64,000 nucleotides of DNA. Origin: Desulfoscipio geothermicus DSM 3669 (lineage in GTDB: Bacteria > Bacillota > Desulfotomaculia > Desulfotomaculales > Desulfallaceae). The DNA is taken from assembly GCF_900115975.1 (NCBI RefSeq), contig NZ_FOYM01000001.1, positions 62,001-126,000 on the forward strand. Reading direction: 5' to 3'. The notes beneath the pieces are model-generated. The model made no database searches. It saw only the letters and a program-made list of their open reading frames with translations, and was not told where the DNA came from. Within the stretch, counting starts at the first letter, position 1, and each line of letters starts with the position of its first letter. The position numbers were made by a program, and so were the translations under genes. Positions 15,101-53,447 of the stretch are shown piece after piece.

Positions 15101-16945
15101 TTAAGTTGGGTTTCCTCTAGACCGGAGATTCCCTTCTTTATCCAACCACAGGCGGATGCCTTTTTCGTCCCTGTCAAAACGGTAAATTCGACCACCTACC
15201 GCTATGGAAGCGTTCTCAAAGACATAACCCACGGTAACCACGGCTGCCGGGCCGGCCACCACCCTGGTAGGTGTCCCAACTTTAGAGCCTACTTTCCCCA
15301 GATGCACATCTCCACCGGCCTGGATCTCACCCCCACGAAATAAACCGGATATAGTTACCTCCTTACCAGCCTGGATTCGTGAATTGTAACAACCACTGCC
15401 CACCACCCGCACATCGCCGGTTGCTATAATAGTAGAATTGAGAATGCTTGACGCCACTACGTCACTTTCTGAAGATGGCAGACACGTAAAGGCCTGTTTC
15501 CATTCCACAGCCCGTTTGGCCAGTGTTTCCACCTCCCGAAGGTCATGTGCGGCTAAAGGGGTATGAACCACTACCCGTTCAACTTCCCGAATAAACTCGT
15601 CCAGGCTTTCACCGGCCAATTCCGGGGGCATAATTTTAACTTGACTCTTAAAGGTATTAACCACAGCGGGAAGATGACGAAATTTTCCCTCCAACAGCAA
15701 CTTTACCAGCGGACCGATTCCGCGTTTAAGATCGCCCTGCTTGAACGCAGGGTGACTCAGCAGCTGCCGAATAGCCATGACCATCTTTTGCAAGCCGTTT
15801 GCCAGGGCATGAATCTCCGGCAAAATACCTTGTAGAAAGGCAGAAGTCCCTCCTGCGGCTATTACTGATGAAAAAATATTTCCCCTGATCAGGATGGAAC
15901 CCGTGGCTTGAACCCTCGCCCCGGAAACCAGCCCCGCCACATTTACATTTCCATCCGCTTCTACCTTCATCCCTTCTTCCACATTACCGGTAATTTGGAT
16001 ATCTCCTTTAAAGACAATATTACCGGAAGCAAGGTCTACATTACCATTATGAACCAATTGAGGTAATACACTTACCTTCACCAAATTACGCCGGCGAGAG
16101 GCCACGGGACGCCCGGCCCGGGCCGCCACGACCCGTTCACCATCTCCTGTTAGCACCGCTCCTTCACCTGCAGAAAGGCTAAAGTCCCGAGGCGATACCG
16201 GTACAATTACGTCACCCTTGACGCTGGTACCAGGACGCCCCGGCGTAGGCGGGTGTTTGACAGCCAGGATTTCCCCCGCCTCCACCGAAGTAAAAACATA
16301 CTGTTCCCGAAAATCCAGCGTTTCGGTTTCCTCTTTCGGCACAGGTACCTTGGGTTTAGAAGAAAAAAGCAATTCCAACCGGCCGTCTTTCCCTGGTATC
16401 GCCGGAACACCTTGAGCGATAACCACCTCCTCTTCAGCGCAGGATGTAACACTGCGCAAGCATGCTTCCCAGTTTACGCCATGATTAATCCCCAGCCGGG
16501 ATAATTCTTGTAATAGTTCGTCCCATGCAAGTACCGGAAGTCGTTCTTCCCGCTCCACTACCGCCAGTTGTAGTTTTTGGGCAGGGGGGAGGTCCGCCAA
16601 TTCCCGGTAAACTACCATAGCAGGGCGGATACGCAATATTGCCTGTAGGCCATCGGGGGAAACAGTCACAGACCATTCGCCTTCTCTTCGCTCATTCACC
16701 GTTTCCACCCGAACCACATCCTTCATGCATACGGGGGTGAGTTGAGTGCGTTCCTCGCCGTTGACAATCAACCTGATCCCCGGGCAAGGTATCACTAACG
16801 GATAGGGTCCCTCCGGTCGGTGCCGGACAACAAGGCGCCCCTGTTTCACAAAAGCATATGGACCCACCGCTTCTCCGTCCGAAAAAGCATTGTCCGCTCC
16901 ACTCGCTGTTGCTGCGGGGGAACCCCGGGTAATCTCCTCTTTCAT
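15101..16945 (-). CDS. FapA/DUF342 family polymer-forming protein
   Basis: 614 residues. The central part (about 155-370) is the FapA (DUF342) core: GVPAIPGKDGRLELLF, HPPTPGRPGTSVKGD, then a right-handed beta-helix with repeats such as GNVEEGMKVEADGNVNVAGLV and GSILIRGNIFSS. A helical stretch follows (about 370-500), then a second beta-helix part. FapA-type proteins are linked to flagellar, cell-shape or surface assembly in other bacteria, but the biochemical role is not settled. ATG start with AGGAGGTG upstream. Last gene of the partner-switching operon. Confidence 0.85.
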   Translation of the reverse strand: MKEEITRGSPAATASGADNAFSDGEAVGPYAFVKQGRLVVRHRPEGPYPLVIPCPGIRLIVNGEERTQLTPVCMKDVVRVETVNERREGEWSVTVSPDGLQAILRIRPAMVVYRELADLPPAQKLQLAVVEREERLPVLAWDELLQELSRLGINHGVNWEACLRSVTSCAEEEVVIAQGVPAIPGKDGRLELLFSSKPKVPVPKEETETLDFREQYVFTSVEAGEILAVKHPPTPGRPGTSVKGDVIVPVSPRDFSLSAGEGAVLTGDGERVVAARAGRPVASRRRNLVKVSVLPQLVHNGNVDLASGNIVFKGDIQITGNVEEGMKVEADGNVNVAGLVSGARVQATGSILIRGNIFSSVIAAGGTSAFLQGILPEIHALANGLQKMVMAIRQLLSHPAFKQGDLKRGIGPLVKLLLEGKFRHLPAVVNTFKSQVKIMPPELAGESLDEFIREVERVVVHTPLAAHDLREVETLAKRAVEWKQAFTCLPSSESDVVASSILNSTIIATGDVRVVGSGCYNSRIQAGKEVTISGLFRGGEIQAGGDVHLGKVGSKVGTPTRVVAGPAAVVTVGYVFENASIAVGGRIYRFDRDEKGIRLWLDKEGNLRSRGNPT

Positions 16946-16962: not shown

Positions 16963-17283
16963 CTAAGCATTGGGATTAGACTCCAATATTTCCAGTACTT
17001 TAAAAAAACCTATCATTTCCAGGTCTTCTCGAATAAAATCGGGGATGTTAACAATTCTCAGGGTGCGCCCCTGCCTGTACAGGTATCTGGCCTGGCTCAG
17101 GAGCATTCCCGCCCCGGAAGAGTCTATGAACAGAAGTCCCTGCAGATCTATCTCCACCACTTCCTCCGGATGTCGCTGAATTTCCTGTTGCAACTGCTCC
17201 ACGTTGCTGAAATCCAGTTCTCCTTCCAGCTCCAGTGTTACCATTCCTTTCTGTTGCCGGATTCTAATCTCCACTCCTTTCAC
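16963..17283 (-). CDS. STAS-domain anti-sigma-factor antagonist-like protein
   Basis: 106-residue stand-alone STAS domain related to SpoIIAA/RsbV. The phospho-acceptor loop LLFIDSSGAGMLL lies near residue 55. Such proteins are switched by Ser phosphorylation by an RsbW-type kinase and by a PP2C phosphatase; both genes are next door. The GTG start overlaps the 3' end of the phosphatase gene by 20 bases. The target of this switch is not shown, and no sigma factor is in the cluster. Confidence 0.9.
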   Translation of the reverse strand: MKGVEIRIRQQKGMVTLELEGELDFSNVEQLQQEIQRHPEEVVEIDLQGLLFIDSSGAGMLLSQARYLYRQGRTLRIVNIPDFIREDLEMIGFFKVLEILESNPNA

Positions 17284-17989
17284 CTGCCTTTCCTGTCACC
17301 TTCATCACAACCAGTGTCACGTCATCCTTTTGAGAAAAACCGCGGGTAAATGTCTCCAGGTCAGATAAAATATTTTGTTTCATCCTGTCTGCATCAGCGC
17401 CATTCTGAAGGCGAACTATCTCCTTCAATCGTTCCTGCCCGTACCTCTGCCCGCCTAGGCCAGATGCTTCCACAAGTCCATCGGTATATAGCACCACCGC
17501 ATCTCCGGCGGCAAGAAAAAATTCCTCCGCCCCCGACCCAAGGTAATCCTCCAACAGGCCCAAGGCAACTCCCCGGCACTGGGCCACTCTCACCCTACCG
17601 TTAGATAGAAGGAGGGGAGGGTGGTGCCCCGCATTGACACAGGTGAGGCGTCCAGCTATCCCGTCGTAACACAGCAGGCATAGGGTGGCAAAAGCCCCGC
17701 ATTTCCGCAGTTCATACCCTCCCACCTTGTTTAACCGGCGCACCACCTCCAGAGGATGGGGATTAATCCTGGCACACTCCCGGAGCATATGGCAGATTGT
17801 TTCCATCAGCCGGGCCGCATGGAATCCTTTACCCATTACATCTCCGATGGCGGCAAACACGGTTCTCTTGTCGCAGGAGATAAACTCAAAAAAATCTCCA
17901 CCTACCTGTCCGGCAGGCAGGCTACACCCACTACCTTCCAACCCGCAAGCCTTTATTATTTTCCCATTCCCTGTGATCACTTCTCTCAT
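17264..17989 (-). CDS. PP2C-type (SpoIIE/RsbU-like) protein phosphatase
   Basis: 241 residues, essentially one SpoIIE/PP2C catalytic domain: metal-binding motifs VGGDFFEF near 29 and AIGDVMGKGFHAA near 48, NAGHHPPLLL near 122, LYTDGLVEA near 165 and the terminal DDVTLVVMK. It has no sensor domain, so its input must come from a partner or from expression level. Predicted to dephosphorylate one or both flanking STAS proteins. Confidence 0.92.
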   Translation of the reverse strand: MREVITGNGKIIKACGLEGSGCSLPAGQVGGDFFEFISCDKRTVFAAIGDVMGKGFHAARLMETICHMLRECARINPHPLEVVRRLNKVGGYELRKCGAFATLCLLCYDGIAGRLTCVNAGHHPPLLLSNGRVRVAQCRGVALGLLEDYLGSGAEEFFLAAGDAVVLYTDGLVEASGLGGQRYGQERLKEIVRLQNGADADRMKQNILSDLETFTRGFSQKDDVTLVVMKVTGKAGERSGD

Positions 17990-17996
17990 CCTGCTC

Positions 17997-18323
17997 CTAC
18001 CTCTCTTCTCCGGCCGGAGCGGTGTTTTGCGCCAGGAGCCTGTCCAACCCTACCAACTGCATCACCTCCGCCACATCAGGTTGCGGCCTTAAAATCAGCA
18101 TCCGGCCTCCTTTTTGCCGCCAGTCGTTATTAATGTCCAGCAAACTTTTCAAACCGGTGGAATCAACGAAAGAAACGCCTGACAGGTCAACTTCCAGCGT
18201 GTGTTCCCCCACTTTCCCAACAACCTCTTGCAATTGCGCTATCGTTTCCATGTCTAATTCGCCGTTTAGCACAACCCGGCACACTCCACGGGCAACGTAA
18301 ACATCTACTTTCAGCAATAACAT
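17997..18323 (-). CDS. STAS-domain anti-sigma-factor antagonist-like protein (second copy)
   Basis: 108 residues, STAS fold with the phospho-acceptor loop GVSFVDSTGLKSLLDI near residue 58. It lies between the kinase and the phosphatase. Its sequence is clearly different from the first STAS protein of the cluster, so the two probably have different partners. The family is known from sporulation and stress regulation, but no sporulation gene is attached to this cluster. Confidence 0.9.
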   Translation of the reverse strand: MLLLKVDVYVARGVCRVVLNGELDMETIAQLQEVVGKVGEHTLEVDLSGVSFVDSTGLKSLLDINNDWRQKGGRMLILRPQPDVAEVMQLVGLDRLLAQNTAPAGEER

Positions 18324-18332
18324 TACCTTCCT

Positions 18333-19589
18333 TCATTGGTATTGTTTTAACCTATCTGCAGGCCCAATGCCAAAGTCCAGGGCCAGGGCGGTACCTGACG
18401 GTGCTGTATTAAGGTAGAGGTAGTCCGCATAGTAGAGCATCAGGGTAAATCCACACCCCATGGAATTCTTGGTTGAATAATGTTGCATCAGCGTTGCCCG
18501 GGCTAATTCGCTGGTTTTAATTCCCGGACCCCGGTCCCGCACAATAATCCTGACTGCATCCCCTGACTGTCTGGCTTGCCAGCAACCGCCCCCCGCATGC
18601 TTAAGAGTATTTGTCAGCGCCTCTGACAAGCACAAGGCAATAGCATGCCGCTTGCGGCTGTCGAGAGCAGGTAAAGCTTCCCGTATTGCTCGGCGGGCTT
18701 CCGGAAGGTCATGGGTCTGCCGGACTTCACCCTTGGCCAGCTCTGCCCCTTCTGAGACCACTTTCTCCATCTCTTTACCATTCGCCAGGTATAACCGGCC
18801 CCCCGTTACCGCCGCTATGGCATCCCGGTAAGCCTGCATCTCCTGCCGGTGCATCCTTCTCTCCTTTTCAATCACCTCGGTGATGTCAAAGGCCAACAGT
18901 CCACCGCTCCTGTAATCGAAAGGAACCCCGTGAAGGTCAAACACCTTTTGCCCGTCAGCGCTAATGATCACCTCGCGCCGGTGTTCGGCCTGGCGGGTAG
19001 CCTGGCGCATCAGTTTTTCCGCTTCTTCCATGGGCAGATCCAGGTCAGCCTGACCTGAAAGGTAGCGGAAGCGCCCCCCTTCATATTTCATCACCTTCCC
19101 CACCCTGAGAGCGTTAATTAGTTCGGATTTCTCCACTTCAGCCAGCAGTTTTTCCCTGACTAGGTCCTGAAGGTGCTCCGGTAAGTGCCTGGTAATCTCC
19201 TGTACCAGCTCGCCGGCGCTTCCGGCCAGCAACTGGTACTCATCGCTGTTAAGCCGGCTGGCAGTCCCCTGCCTCCGGTGGACACATATGATGTCAAACA
19301 GGCGGACGTTATTTTTACCCCTGAAAGGTACTCCGGCTACCTCGACCCACAAACTTTCCTGCAGCCTGATTACATACCGGCCCGGAACTGGAGCTTCCGT
19401 TTCCAGCCCAAATCCCGTGGTATTAAACACCAGAATGTGTGCCGGATACTGCTTGCCATGCTCATCTTCCAGTAATACCCGGACAGGCGGTGAAAGCACC
19501 CGGCGGAGGGGGCCCTGCTGAATAAAGTACTTGCAATCTACACAAGGACGGCCTGGTTCTTTCTTCGCGCATTCAAGACACCGTCGCAT
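18333..19589 (-). CDS. RsbW-like ATP-binding kinase with Cys4 and PilZ-like N-terminus and PAS-like middle
   Basis: 418 residues from ATG 19589 (GGGGTGA upstream). Residues 1-22 form a Cys4 motif (CLEC and CVDC), possibly zinc-binding. Residues 30-115 look like a PilZ domain (LRRVLSPPVRVLL, then NTTGFGLE). Residues 150-270 resemble a PAS module. Residues 290-410 are a GHKL ATPase domain of the anti-sigma-factor kinase type (LSEALTNTLKHAGG, RDRGPGI, STKNSMGCGFTLM). It starts 5 bases after the HD-GYP gene. Predicted to phosphorylate the STAS proteins, perhaps in response to c-di-GMP; the PilZ call is by eye. Confidence 0.82.
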   Translation of the reverse strand: MRRCLECAKKEPGRPCVDCKYFIQQGPLRRVLSPPVRVLLEDEHGKQYPAHILVFNTTGFGLETEAPVPGRYVIRLQESLWVEVAGVPFRGKNNVRLFDIICVHRRQGTASRLNSDEYQLLAGSAGELVQEITRHLPEHLQDLVREKLLAEVEKSELINALRVGKVMKYEGGRFRYLSGQADLDLPMEEAEKLMRQATRQAEHRREVIISADGQKVFDLHGVPFDYRSGGLLAFDITEVIEKERRMHRQEMQAYRDAIAAVTGGRLYLANGKEMEKVVSEGAELAKGEVRQTHDLPEARRAIREALPALDSRKRHAIALCLSEALTNTLKHAGGGCWQARQSGDAVRIIVRDRGPGIKTSELARATLMQHYSTKNSMGCGFTLMLYYADYLYLNTAPSGTALALDFGIGPADRLKQYQ

Positions 19590-19593
19590 TTTT

Positions 19594-20346
19594 TCACCCC
19601 CTTTCTGCCTGTCGGCCCCTCCCGGCTGCATTTCCTTTAAATTGCCACAATATTACCAGCAAACGGTCCAGCCATTGGCTCTGGGCGTATACCAGCGGAT
19701 GTGACAACGTGATATATGAATCCGCCAATTGAGCAAGCCATTGTTTTTCATTGTCTATCTGCCTTTCCAGCCTGGCCGGGTCGCGATAGGTGGCGGTCTG
19801 CCAAAAGGGCTCTTCCGCCAGAGCCGCCACCAGCTTCGGGTCGAACTGGGAACCAGCACCCTGATAGACTTCTTCCAGCGCTTCATATATTTTTAAAGGC
19901 AAGCGGTAAGGACGTAAGGAAATCATGGCATCCATGGCATCGGCCAGGACAATGACCCGTGCGCGCCAGGGGATCCGTTCTCCCCTCAGCCCCTCATATC
20001 CCTTTCCATCCCACCTTTCGTGATGATAGCGGACCATTTCCACCAGGGACGTGTCCACTCCCATTCCTTCTATTATGGAGGCACCCCGCAAGGGGTGTTC
20101 CTTTAATTCAGTCCATTCCCCCTTTGTAAGGGGTCCTGGCTTATCGATAATTTCGCGTTTAACAAACATCTTTCCCACATCGTGGAGGAGTGCCCCGGCT
20201 ATCACGGTTTCCCGATCTTGTTCGTCCAGGCGAAGTAAAGTGCATATTCTCAAAGAGAGATTTGCAACGTTGGCACTGTGAAGAAATAATCCCGGCCAGG
20301 ATTTTTTCATCGTTCTTAACAGGTTGTTAACTCCCGTTGTATCCAC
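19594..20346 (-). CDS. HD-GYP domain protein, putative c-di-GMP phosphodiesterase
   Basis: 250 residues. The HD-GYP core covers about residues 18-180: ALLHDVGKMFV (HD metal site) near 52, HPLRGASIIEG near 84, MVRYHHERWDGKGYEG near 105. The GYP motif reads GYE here, so activity should be tested. A divergent helical tail of about 60 residues follows. No receiver or sensor domain. GTG start after GGGGCGG. It is the first gene behind a c-di-GMP-I riboswitch, which supports a c-di-GMP role. Confidence 0.9.
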   Translation of the reverse strand: MDTTGVNNLLRTMKKSWPGLFLHSANVANLSLRICTLLRLDEQDRETVIAGALLHDVGKMFVKREIIDKPGPLTKGEWTELKEHPLRGASIIEGMGVDTSLVEMVRYHHERWDGKGYEGLRGERIPWRARVIVLADAMDAMISLRPYRLPLKIYEALEEVYQGAGSQFDPKLVAALAEEPFWQTATYRDPARLERQIDNEKQWLAQLADSYITLSHPLVYAQSQWLDRLLVILWQFKGNAAGRGRQAERG

Positions 20347-20411
20347 AGGAACCGCCCCTTTTTTAACTTTTTCCCTTCATTTACACCTGAATATAGGTAG
20401 ATATACTTGTA

Positions 20412-20440
20412 AGAAAAAACGGCAGCCTACTAGCTGCCGC
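20412..20440 (-). terminator. terminator of the c-di-GMP riboswitch
   Basis: On the minus strand the stem CGGCAG/CTGCCG is followed by GTTTTTT. Its 5' arm (rc of 20435-20447) can instead pair over 13 bases with the 3' end of the riboswitch aptamer (rc of 20472-20484), giving an antiterminator. Ligand-bound aptamer should therefore favour termination. Confidence 0.85.
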
Positions 20441-20472
20441 AATAAAGAATACTTTAAAACAATAACAAAACC

Positions 20473-20567
20473 TTTATCGCGGCAACCTGGCAGTCATACC
20501 CTCAAGGGCTACAGACCCATGGCTTTGCGCCCCACCCTTTCGAGTGGTTTGCCTTTGGCACAATAAA
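20473..20567 (-). promoter_or_regulatory. cyclic-di-GMP-I (GEMM) riboswitch aptamer
   Basis: The minus strand reads GGCAAACCACTCGAAAGGG, then TGGGGCGCAAAGCCATGGGTC, and, after a variable stem, TGACTGCCAGGTTGCCG. These are the hallmark blocks of GEMM-I: GAAA tetraloop, the CGCAAAGCC ligand core and the closing GGTTGCCG. P1 is TTTATTG paired with CGATAAA. A terminator lies downstream, then an HD-GYP gene. A TATAAT box at 20575-20580 (minus) is placed to start transcription at the aptamer. Confidence 0.92.
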
Positions 20568-20791
20568 GTTTTAAATTATAAAAGTTTGAGGTCATATTAC
20601 GGCTAGAACCCAGAAGATTTCCTGGAAGGGTAAAACGTTCAGCCGTTAAAGTGTATTGTTCATGGGAAAAATAAAGAGGAGAAAAATAAGCTAACAAGTC
20701 CGTGAGTAAAAACTATTATGATGCGCCTCGTTAGCAACTGAAAGGAGCGAATAGACAATCTGGGTAGGCAATTTAAAAGGGTGGGTGAATA

Positions 20792-20965
20792 ATGGAATTT
20801 CCTAGAAAGCTCAGAAGCTCTAACAACCAAAATGGAAAGAATACAGCAATGGAAAATTTTGGTAATTATTACATAAATTACCCCCCCCCCCCCCCGAACA
20901 TATGTTTATTATGGATCCTTTGTTTCATAATATCAACCTTCACTCCTGTATATTTAGTAATATAA
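20792..20965 (+). CDS. putative 57-residue membrane-anchored protein containing a poly-C tract
   Basis: ATG 20792 follows an AGGGTGGGTG stretch. The frame encodes a polar Asn-rich N-terminus (MEFPRKLRSSNNQNG), then five prolines encoded by a 15-base run of C (20881-20895), then a hydrophobic C-terminal helix (NICLLWILCFIISTFTPVYL). The AT-rich composition differs from its neighbours. I do not recognise a family. A C15 tract is prone to length change, which would shift the membrane helix out of frame. Small-ORF calls of this kind are uncertain. Confidence 0.4.
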   Translation: MEFPRKLRSSNNQNGKNTAMENFGNYYINYPPPPPNICLLWILCFIISTFTPVYLVI

Positions 20966-36653: not shown

Positions 36654-37113
36654 TAAAATATATATAAGCCCGCCGCACGCCCCACAGGGACGAAAGCGAC
36701 GGGCTACTTCCGCGGTACCACCCTGGTTGACCCGCTGTGGCAGCGGGTCCACTCTTGCAAGGTACGGGAAAGAATTCCCCGGCGGCAATCGCGTGCAATT
36801 TAAAAAGCCTCTCATCCCCAAGGGACGAGAGGCTGTGCCACCGCGTTACCACCCTAGTTGACCCGTTCTTATTCAAAACAGGCCCACTTGATAAGAGTAC
36901 GGGAAAAACTTCCGATACCCCCTTCCCTATAACGTGGGAAGCATACGTCCTGGCCTACTTACCTGCAATGTGGTTTCAGCCGGCTCCTCCGGAGAGAACT
37001 TCAGATGGTCATGACCCGGGAACGCTTCCAGTCAACGACGTCCCCTCCCTGGGGGCCTGTTTCCAGCCTACTTTTCTCCTTCACTGGATTTGATGCGCTT
37101 TATTGATTATGTT
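36654..37113 (-). promoter_or_regulatory. T-box leader with one stem I (UUC specifier) and two antiterminator/terminator modules
   Basis: On the minus strand the T-box sequence AGGGTGGTAACGCGG (36841-36855) and a second, AGGGTGGTACCGCGG (36710-36724), are each followed by a terminator: AGCCTCTC/GAGAGGCT with TTTTTAAA (36800-36834) and AGCCCGTCGC/GCGGCGGGCT (36667-36705). Stem I begins near 37093 (AGTGAAGGAGAAAAGTAGG). In GAAGTTCTCTCCGGAG the codon placed one base before CTCCGGAG is TTC (36996-36998), indicating tRNA-Phe. Stem III-like sequence precedes both modules, but only the first has a stem I. Confidence 0.92.
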
Positions 37114-53198: not shown

Positions 53199-53225
53199 GA
53201 AAGTCACAAAGTAAAAAATCATACA

Positions 53226-53395
53226 TTCCAGGTGCCCGCAAGGGAGAATAGGGAACCGGGTGAGAATCCCGGGCGGTCCCGCCACTGTAACCGGTAGCCC
53301 ACCTATAAAACCACCGTTTGTCGTCCGTTTGGCAAGGCAGGCGGGAAGGAAGGTACGGGCGCTATCCCGGAAGCCAGGAGACCTGCCTGGAAATG
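53226..53395 (+). promoter_or_regulatory. cobalamin riboswitch aptamer
   Basis: Contains the conserved blocks GGGAACCGGGTGAGAATCCC, GCGGTCCCGCCACTGTAACC and AGCCAGGAGACCTGCCTG (the B12 box), in the right order and spacing. It should bind adenosyl- or another cobalamin and repress the operon that makes the lower ligand. Confidence 0.96.
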
Positions 53396-53447
53396 TCTCG
53401 CACAGCCTCGTGGATAAGGGCGGTGTCCGGGTTACATGGATGATGGA

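Follow-up and report, generated by a model that had tools for sequence, protein, structure and literature searches.

We propose, with a probability of about 0.6, that the window (the whole stretch of DNA analysed, 64,000 nucleotides) harbours a horizontally moving kinase-STAS1-PP2C-STAS2-FapA cassette equipped with its own class-I c-di-GMP OFF riboswitch, in which a STAS protein would deliver its output to something other than a sigma factor. Riboswitches and partner-switching modules are each well known; their union, together with a constant FapA, appears to be new here, and a search of the open-access literature returned no paper joining a riboswitch to partner-switching or naming FapA as a constant partner. 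Because the RNA, the genes and their order stay together across many species, the locus offers a connection, open to testing, between a second messenger and a protein phospho-switch that lacks an adjacent sigma factor. Its anatomy and its conservation are established by computation with high confidence, and its parts, in the direction of transcription, are listed below.

20908–20936, minus strand: weak sigma-70-like site, TTGATA-17-CATAAT, 10/12 matches
20881–20905, minus strand: palindrome half ACATATGTTC, then 15 G, upstream of the aptamer
20599–20647, minus strand: conserved hairpin upstream of the aptamer, AACGGCTGAAC with GTTCTAGCCGT, thin covariation
20559–20568, minus strand: 5′ strand of the extended P1, pairing with 20481-20472
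20477–20562, minus strand: class-I c-di-GMP aptamer (RF01051 / RF03167), from covariance models and contact bases
20472–20487, minus strand: aptamer 3′ arm, equally the antiterminator 5′ strand
20432–20447, minus strand: switching strand, which forms the 3′ side of the antiterminator and shares bases with the terminator 5′ arm
20419–20440, minus strand: intrinsic terminator stem-loop of 9 pairs, then a T run
19594–20346, minus strand: HD-domain protein of 250 aa, resembling HD-GYP but with GYE (Pfam), accessory first gene
19654–19770, minus strand: Spo0E-like tail of the HD protein, aa 193–231, SQWLD (Pfam PF09388)
18333–19589, minus strand: kinase, 418 aa, with a Cys4 segment, a beta-barrel, a middle region and a SpoIIAB/RsbW-like ATPase domain
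17997–18323, minus strand: STAS1, single STAS domain, DST serine
17264–17989, minus strand: SpoIIE-type PP2C phosphatase
16963–17283, minus strand: STAS2, single STAS domain, DSS serine, with a 20-base overlap with the PP2C gene
15101–16945, minus strand: FapA (FapA_N and beta-solenoid), constant last cassette gene

Rfam and Pfam searches and a terminator scan confirmed what the initial annotation had read at this place, namely an aptamer and terminator in front of HD, kinase, STAS, PP2C, STAS and FapA genes, and the HD, HATPase, STAS, SpoIIE-type PP2C, STAS and FapA domains all score above their Pfam gathering thresholds. The genes are closely packed on the minus strand, as expected of one tight operon, and the reported absence of a sigma factor from the cluster holds both in the Pfam scan and in the loci read in relatives. 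FapA (15101-16945), a cassette member, falls outside the interval first given for the cluster. Two other RNA elements are present in the window, a cobalamin riboswitch (53214-53404, plus strand) and a T-box leader (36818-37093, minus strand).

In the mechanism that we favour, low c-di-GMP would leave the aptamer 3′ arm free to pair with the terminator 5′ arm, so that the operon is read, while at high c-di-GMP P1 would hold the 3′ arm, the terminator would form and the operon would fall silent. With c-di-GMP low, the kinase (SpoIIAB-like) would add phosphate to the serine of STAS1, STAS2 or both, and the PP2C would take it off. A STAS protein would act on a partner that is not a sigma factor, FapA or whatever it organises being the likeliest. 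The HD-Spo0E protein would be encoded by an accessory first gene of the window lineage. A non-sigma partner is proposed because the cassette has no sigma factor, and FapA is the favoured candidate because its gene always closes the order, although our confidence in FapA as the output of the phospho-switch is low.

The initial annotation had suggested a comparison of gene order with related genomes, and the fixed order kinase-STAS1-PP2C-STAS2-FapA is found at 17 loci (the window, L069-L079, L106, L108, L109, L112 and L113, the kinase of L077 being interrupted), with further copies, cut by contig ends, at L103 and L115. The hosts include Desulfofundulus, Desulfallas, Pelotomaculum, Thermosediminibacter and several MAGs; as judged from these genomes, cassette and switch belong to spore-forming sulfate reducers and to some of their relatives. 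Upstream aptamers are present in the window, L069-L072, L074-L080, L103, L106, L112, L113 and L115. The contig of L108 ends too near the kinase to show one, and the roughly 430 bases upstream of L073 contain a poly-G tract and no aptamer, which in the L075 layout would fall past the contig end. At L109 (Thermosediminibacter), no riboswitch was detected even at an E-value of 1, and the cassette stands there without an aptamer. Tandem class-I c-di-GMP aptamers precede the cassette at L069:7457-7141 and L112:996-1316.

Identities between hosts argue for movement of the cassette. MenG, which adjoins it, is 82% identical in G017, a genome of the same family, and 45-49% identical in families f4, f9 and f15. 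The kinase is 84% identical to that of the window in G017, 82-88% in f9 and f15 and 79% in f4, and the PP2C is 88% identical in Thermosediminibacter versus 70% in G017. Vertical descent alone is insufficient to account for these figures; with high confidence, the cassette has spread horizontally between families.

The association of a class-I aptamer with HD-GYP, a SpoIIAB-type kinase, STAS, PP2C and FapA recurs beyond this cassette in differently arranged loci, including two divergent clusters that carry the same functions. In L081 (family f8), an aptamer of 77.5 bits is followed on one strand by a membrane-type kinase, FapA, STAS, HD-GYP and PP2C, the proteins being about 26-38% identical to those of the window and the HD-GYP having its GYP intact. 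A second class-I aptamer in L074 precedes STAS, DUF5317, an HD-GYP/kinase fusion and PP2C; the fusion (L074:12227-14353) is a membrane protein of 708 aa with HD-GYP and HATPase kinase domains in one chain. The window's own genome has, on contig C77, another class-I aptamer (L148:1128-2080) before two short ORFs, the second FapA-like, that resemble a shortened FapA gene and are followed by a PAS-GAF-HD-GYP protein. In L080 (Desulfotruncus arcticus), a deletion joins the beginning of the kinase region to the final part of STAS2 and removes most of the switch, with aptamer, HD-Spo0E and FapA retained. Since FapA is kept there without most of the switch, it may not depend on the phospho-switch and may work alone. 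With its natural deletions of single parts, the cassette is a compact, repeated study system, in which one can ask what role a STAS protein has without a sigma factor and what purpose FapA serves.

The kinase most likely starts at the ATG at 19589 and not at 19631, because the longer reading hits a stop in the relative L074; the alignment agrees. Its earlier description as RsbW-like applies only to the C-terminal third, the rest consisting of the Cys4 segment, the beta-barrel and the middle region. The predicted structure of the ATPase domain has its best PDB matches in SpoIIAB (E 1.3e-5), the whole-kinase model (pLDDT 57, low confidence) being used for this domain alone. The N-terminus carries four invariant cysteines (C4, C7, C16 and C19), and its model, which includes the barrel, reaches a pLDDT of 81.6. 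A PilZ domain on the kinase was considered and rejected: many top matches of the barrel in a fold search are PilZ domains, a weak hint (best E 0.05, TM about 0.5), and the profile and motif tests lend it no support, with no Pfam match to PilZ, no RxxxR motif and an hhalign probability of 0.5%, equal to that of shuffled controls.

If the cassette were a conventional sigma partner switch under riboswitch control, its kinase would be the anti-sigma factor of a sigma factor whose gene lies elsewhere in the genome. This reading would account for an ATPase fold closest to SpoIIAB and RsbW and for STAS proteins that score over the cut-off of the anti-sigma antagonist superfamily. We nevertheless regard it as unlikely, as the cassette lacks a sigma gene in every locus read, the two STAS proteins and the long N-terminal region of the kinase are unlike plain RsbW, and the kinase scores 30 bits with the curated SpoIIAB equivalog model, whose cut-off is 135. 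Moreover, a cassette that moves from family to family would require its sigma factor in each host. A STAS output on a non-sigma partner remains our preferred reading.

The first gene of the operon is its least constant part. The HD-Spo0E gene is present in the window, L074, L076, L080 and L103 and damaged in L112; L070, L071, L072 and L077 hold a short C-terminal HD remnant (27-43 aligned residues, broken by stops), L106 has HD residues 171-248 alone, and the gene is gone from L069. Despite this loss, aptamer and terminator are still present in L069, L070, L071, L072 and L077. Desulfofundulus is among the hosts without the HD gene. A different HD gene occupies L075, L078, L079, L109 and L115, and no Spo0E match was detected in the three of these that were scanned. 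The HD gene is thus the dispensable, variable part, and the conserved target of the predicted switch is the kinase cassette, because relatives lose HD and keep aptamer and terminator.

The protein itself resembles the HD-GYP phosphodiesterase PmGH (PMC4159591) in its HD fold and in seven of eight metal ligands; the missing ligand is the equivalent of E185, a position that varies between two HD-GYP subgroups (PMC4159591). Unlike PmGH, it has W17 at the place of the catalytic D183 (R17 in the L080 protein), GYE in place of GYP and a Spo0E-like tail. In PmGH, GYP mutants remain active and D183A is inactive (PMC4159591), and the absence of a D183 equivalent therefore makes c-di-GMP hydrolase activity of the window protein doubtful.

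These features bear on a plain c-di-GMP feedback operon, in which the switch exists to control an HD-GYP hydrolase, the phospho-switch genes being carried along behind it. Such an operon would fit the position of HD as the first gene past the terminator in the window, L074, L076, L080 and L103, as well as the HD-GYP gene or fusion in the divergent clusters, but it is decidedly improbable, given that L069-L072 and L077 have lost HD, and L106 most of it, with aptamer and cassette retained, and that the window protein combines the loss of the catalytic Asp with GYE for GYP. The same observations weaken the claim of the initial annotation that the second messenger controls its own hydrolase.

The tail, missed earlier, matches the Spo0E-like family PF09388 at 28.5 bits (cut-off 23), contains the SxxLD motif and is retained in L074, L076, L080 and L103; Spo0A is present in the window genome. 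The HD-Spo0E protein may feed back on c-di-GMP or dephosphorylate Spo0A, and its tail hints at a route by which c-di-GMP might act on sporulation at the RNA level; the open-access literature search returned no paper on HD-GYP together with Spo0E. A more far-reaching version is speculative and unlikely to hold as a whole: c-di-GMP would be read by the RNA and perhaps again by a PilZ-like kinase barrel, the STAS output would fall on FapA and not on sigma, and in lineages with HD-Spo0E the operon would dephosphorylate Spo0A, thereby tying c-di-GMP to sporulation.

In the leader, P1 can be extended to 10 pairs (20568-20559 with 20481-20472), and the aptamer 3′ arm can pair with either of two strands because the terminator 5′ arm region copies the P1 5′ arm at 9 of 10 bases (CUUUAUUGCG versus CUUUAUUGUG). 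The antiterminator of 13 pairs described previously (20484-20472 with 20447-20435) forms throughout, with one G-U, and gains 3 pairs to reach 16 (20487-20472 with 20447-20432). Its duplex is predicted at -26.8 kcal/mol in the window, against -13.2 +/- 2.5 kcal/mol for shuffled targets (0/200 as good). In 11 of the 17 leaders compared, no more than 2 of 200 shuffles do as well; the figure is 7 for L078, 12 for L076, 31 for L106, 34 for L080, 41 for L112 and 195 for L112a, the upstream tandem aptamer at L112, so that L076, L080, L106, L112 and L112a (at least 12/200) are not clearly above shuffles. Within 11 aligned leaders, 93.8% of antiterminator cells are paired, against no more than 61% after sliding; for the terminator, pairing is complete (100%). 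Two-sided antiterminator changes are few and no more frequent than in shuffles, and the signal is therefore one of conservation and not of strong covariation. Independent support for the competing helix comes from L078 and L075, where it is built around differently arranged terminators.

Folding energies, which leave out tertiary contacts and the ligand, favour the antiterminator fold without ligand (-59.7 versus -56.6 kcal/mol) and before the last terminator arm exists (-52.9 versus -45.2 kcal/mol). The earlier prediction that the ligand turns the operon off is supported in silico by these energies, by the shuffles and by the conserved, mutually exclusive helices, and with moderate confidence the leader would be a Cd1-like transcriptional OFF switch, presumably acting in the same direction in vivo.

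The class of the aptamer can be read from two models, RF03167 (c-di-GMP-I-GGC; 20562-20477, minus strand, 71.1 bits, gathering 59, E 7.9e-15) and RF01051 (c-di-GMP-I; 76.1 bits at the same site, gathering 35). Positions that contact c-di-GMP in class-I aptamers are G20, A47, A48 and C92 (PMC3764141), all of them canonical in the window aptamer and in nearly all operon-linked aptamers read. The RF03167 consensus has G at position 47, which we infer from the model to be the defining mark of the GGC variant, and the window RNA has A47. That cmscan keeps RF03167 over RF01051 within the clan, in the window and several relatives, would suit a GGC-type variant sensing another signalling molecule, yet such a ligand is very improbable with A47 in place of the G of the RF03167 consensus, with canonical G20, A48 and C92, and with an RF01051 score also far over its cut-off; the ligand is probably c-di-GMP.

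Upstream of the aptamer, the sigma-70-like site at 20908-20936 is the sole one found there on the minus strand within the scanned stretch, and it is considered weak because 5 sites are found on both strands versus 2.1 +/- 1.5 in shuffles. A palindrome near GAACATATGTTC, with 9-19 G and then an A/T-rich stretch behind it, stands upstream of the operon in the window, L074, L075, L076, L078 and L079; it also occurs at G000:C46:30243, G015:C42:6910, G017:C51:15820 and G017:C76:3040, and in the order this element precedes other HD-GYP or chemotaxis-type genes. The palindrome resembles the Firmicute LexA box, and the length of the G run differs between the near-identical L078 and L079. The element may serve phase-variable or SOS-linked control, and an assembly error in the G runs is also possible. 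The element is not general to all riboswitch operons: a search of this genome gave palindrome and G run together at just two places, and the other long G runs there are unrelated to it. An extra promoter is possible in L075 and L078, since the element lies there after the terminator and before the HD gene. About nine relatives retain the hairpin at 20647-20599, with some changes that preserve its pairing; a second riboswitch was rejected for it, with no Rfam match and thin covariation.

Set beside known systems, the cassette shares with Rsb/SpoIIA switching (RsbW-RsbV-RsbU and SpoIIAB-SpoIIAA-SpoIIE) a HATPase kinase of the SpoIIAB/RsbW fold, serine-motif STAS proteins and a SpoIIE-type PP2C, and differs from it by the lack of a sigma factor, two STAS proteins, an extended kinase N-terminus, a constant FapA and the riboswitch ahead. 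The leader is closest to Cd1 of Clostridioides difficile, an OFF switch by experiment (PMC9262584), in its aptamer class (c-di-GMP-I), in its strands P, A, T and H, of which A and T form the antiterminator, T and H the terminator, and in the expected rise of termination with ligand, a likeness drawn from RNA sequence and folding; the targets of Cd1 are flagellar genes, whereas the constant target here would be a genome-hopping kinase/STAS/PP2C/FapA cassette. STAS proteins without a known sigma target exist elsewhere (reviewed in PMC8256260), and SypE-SypA of Vibrio fischeri (PMC8256260) likewise has a STAS output of unknown target acted on by kinase and phosphatase, although SypE unites both activities in one protein and the system has neither riboswitch nor FapA. 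A STAS protein tied to c-di-GMP exists in another form in HsbA-HsbD of Pseudomonas aeruginosa (PMC5085249), where an anti-anti-sigma protein is linked to c-di-GMP and motility; HsbA directly binds a diguanylate cyclase, whereas in the cassette described here c-di-GMP would act on the mRNA leader.
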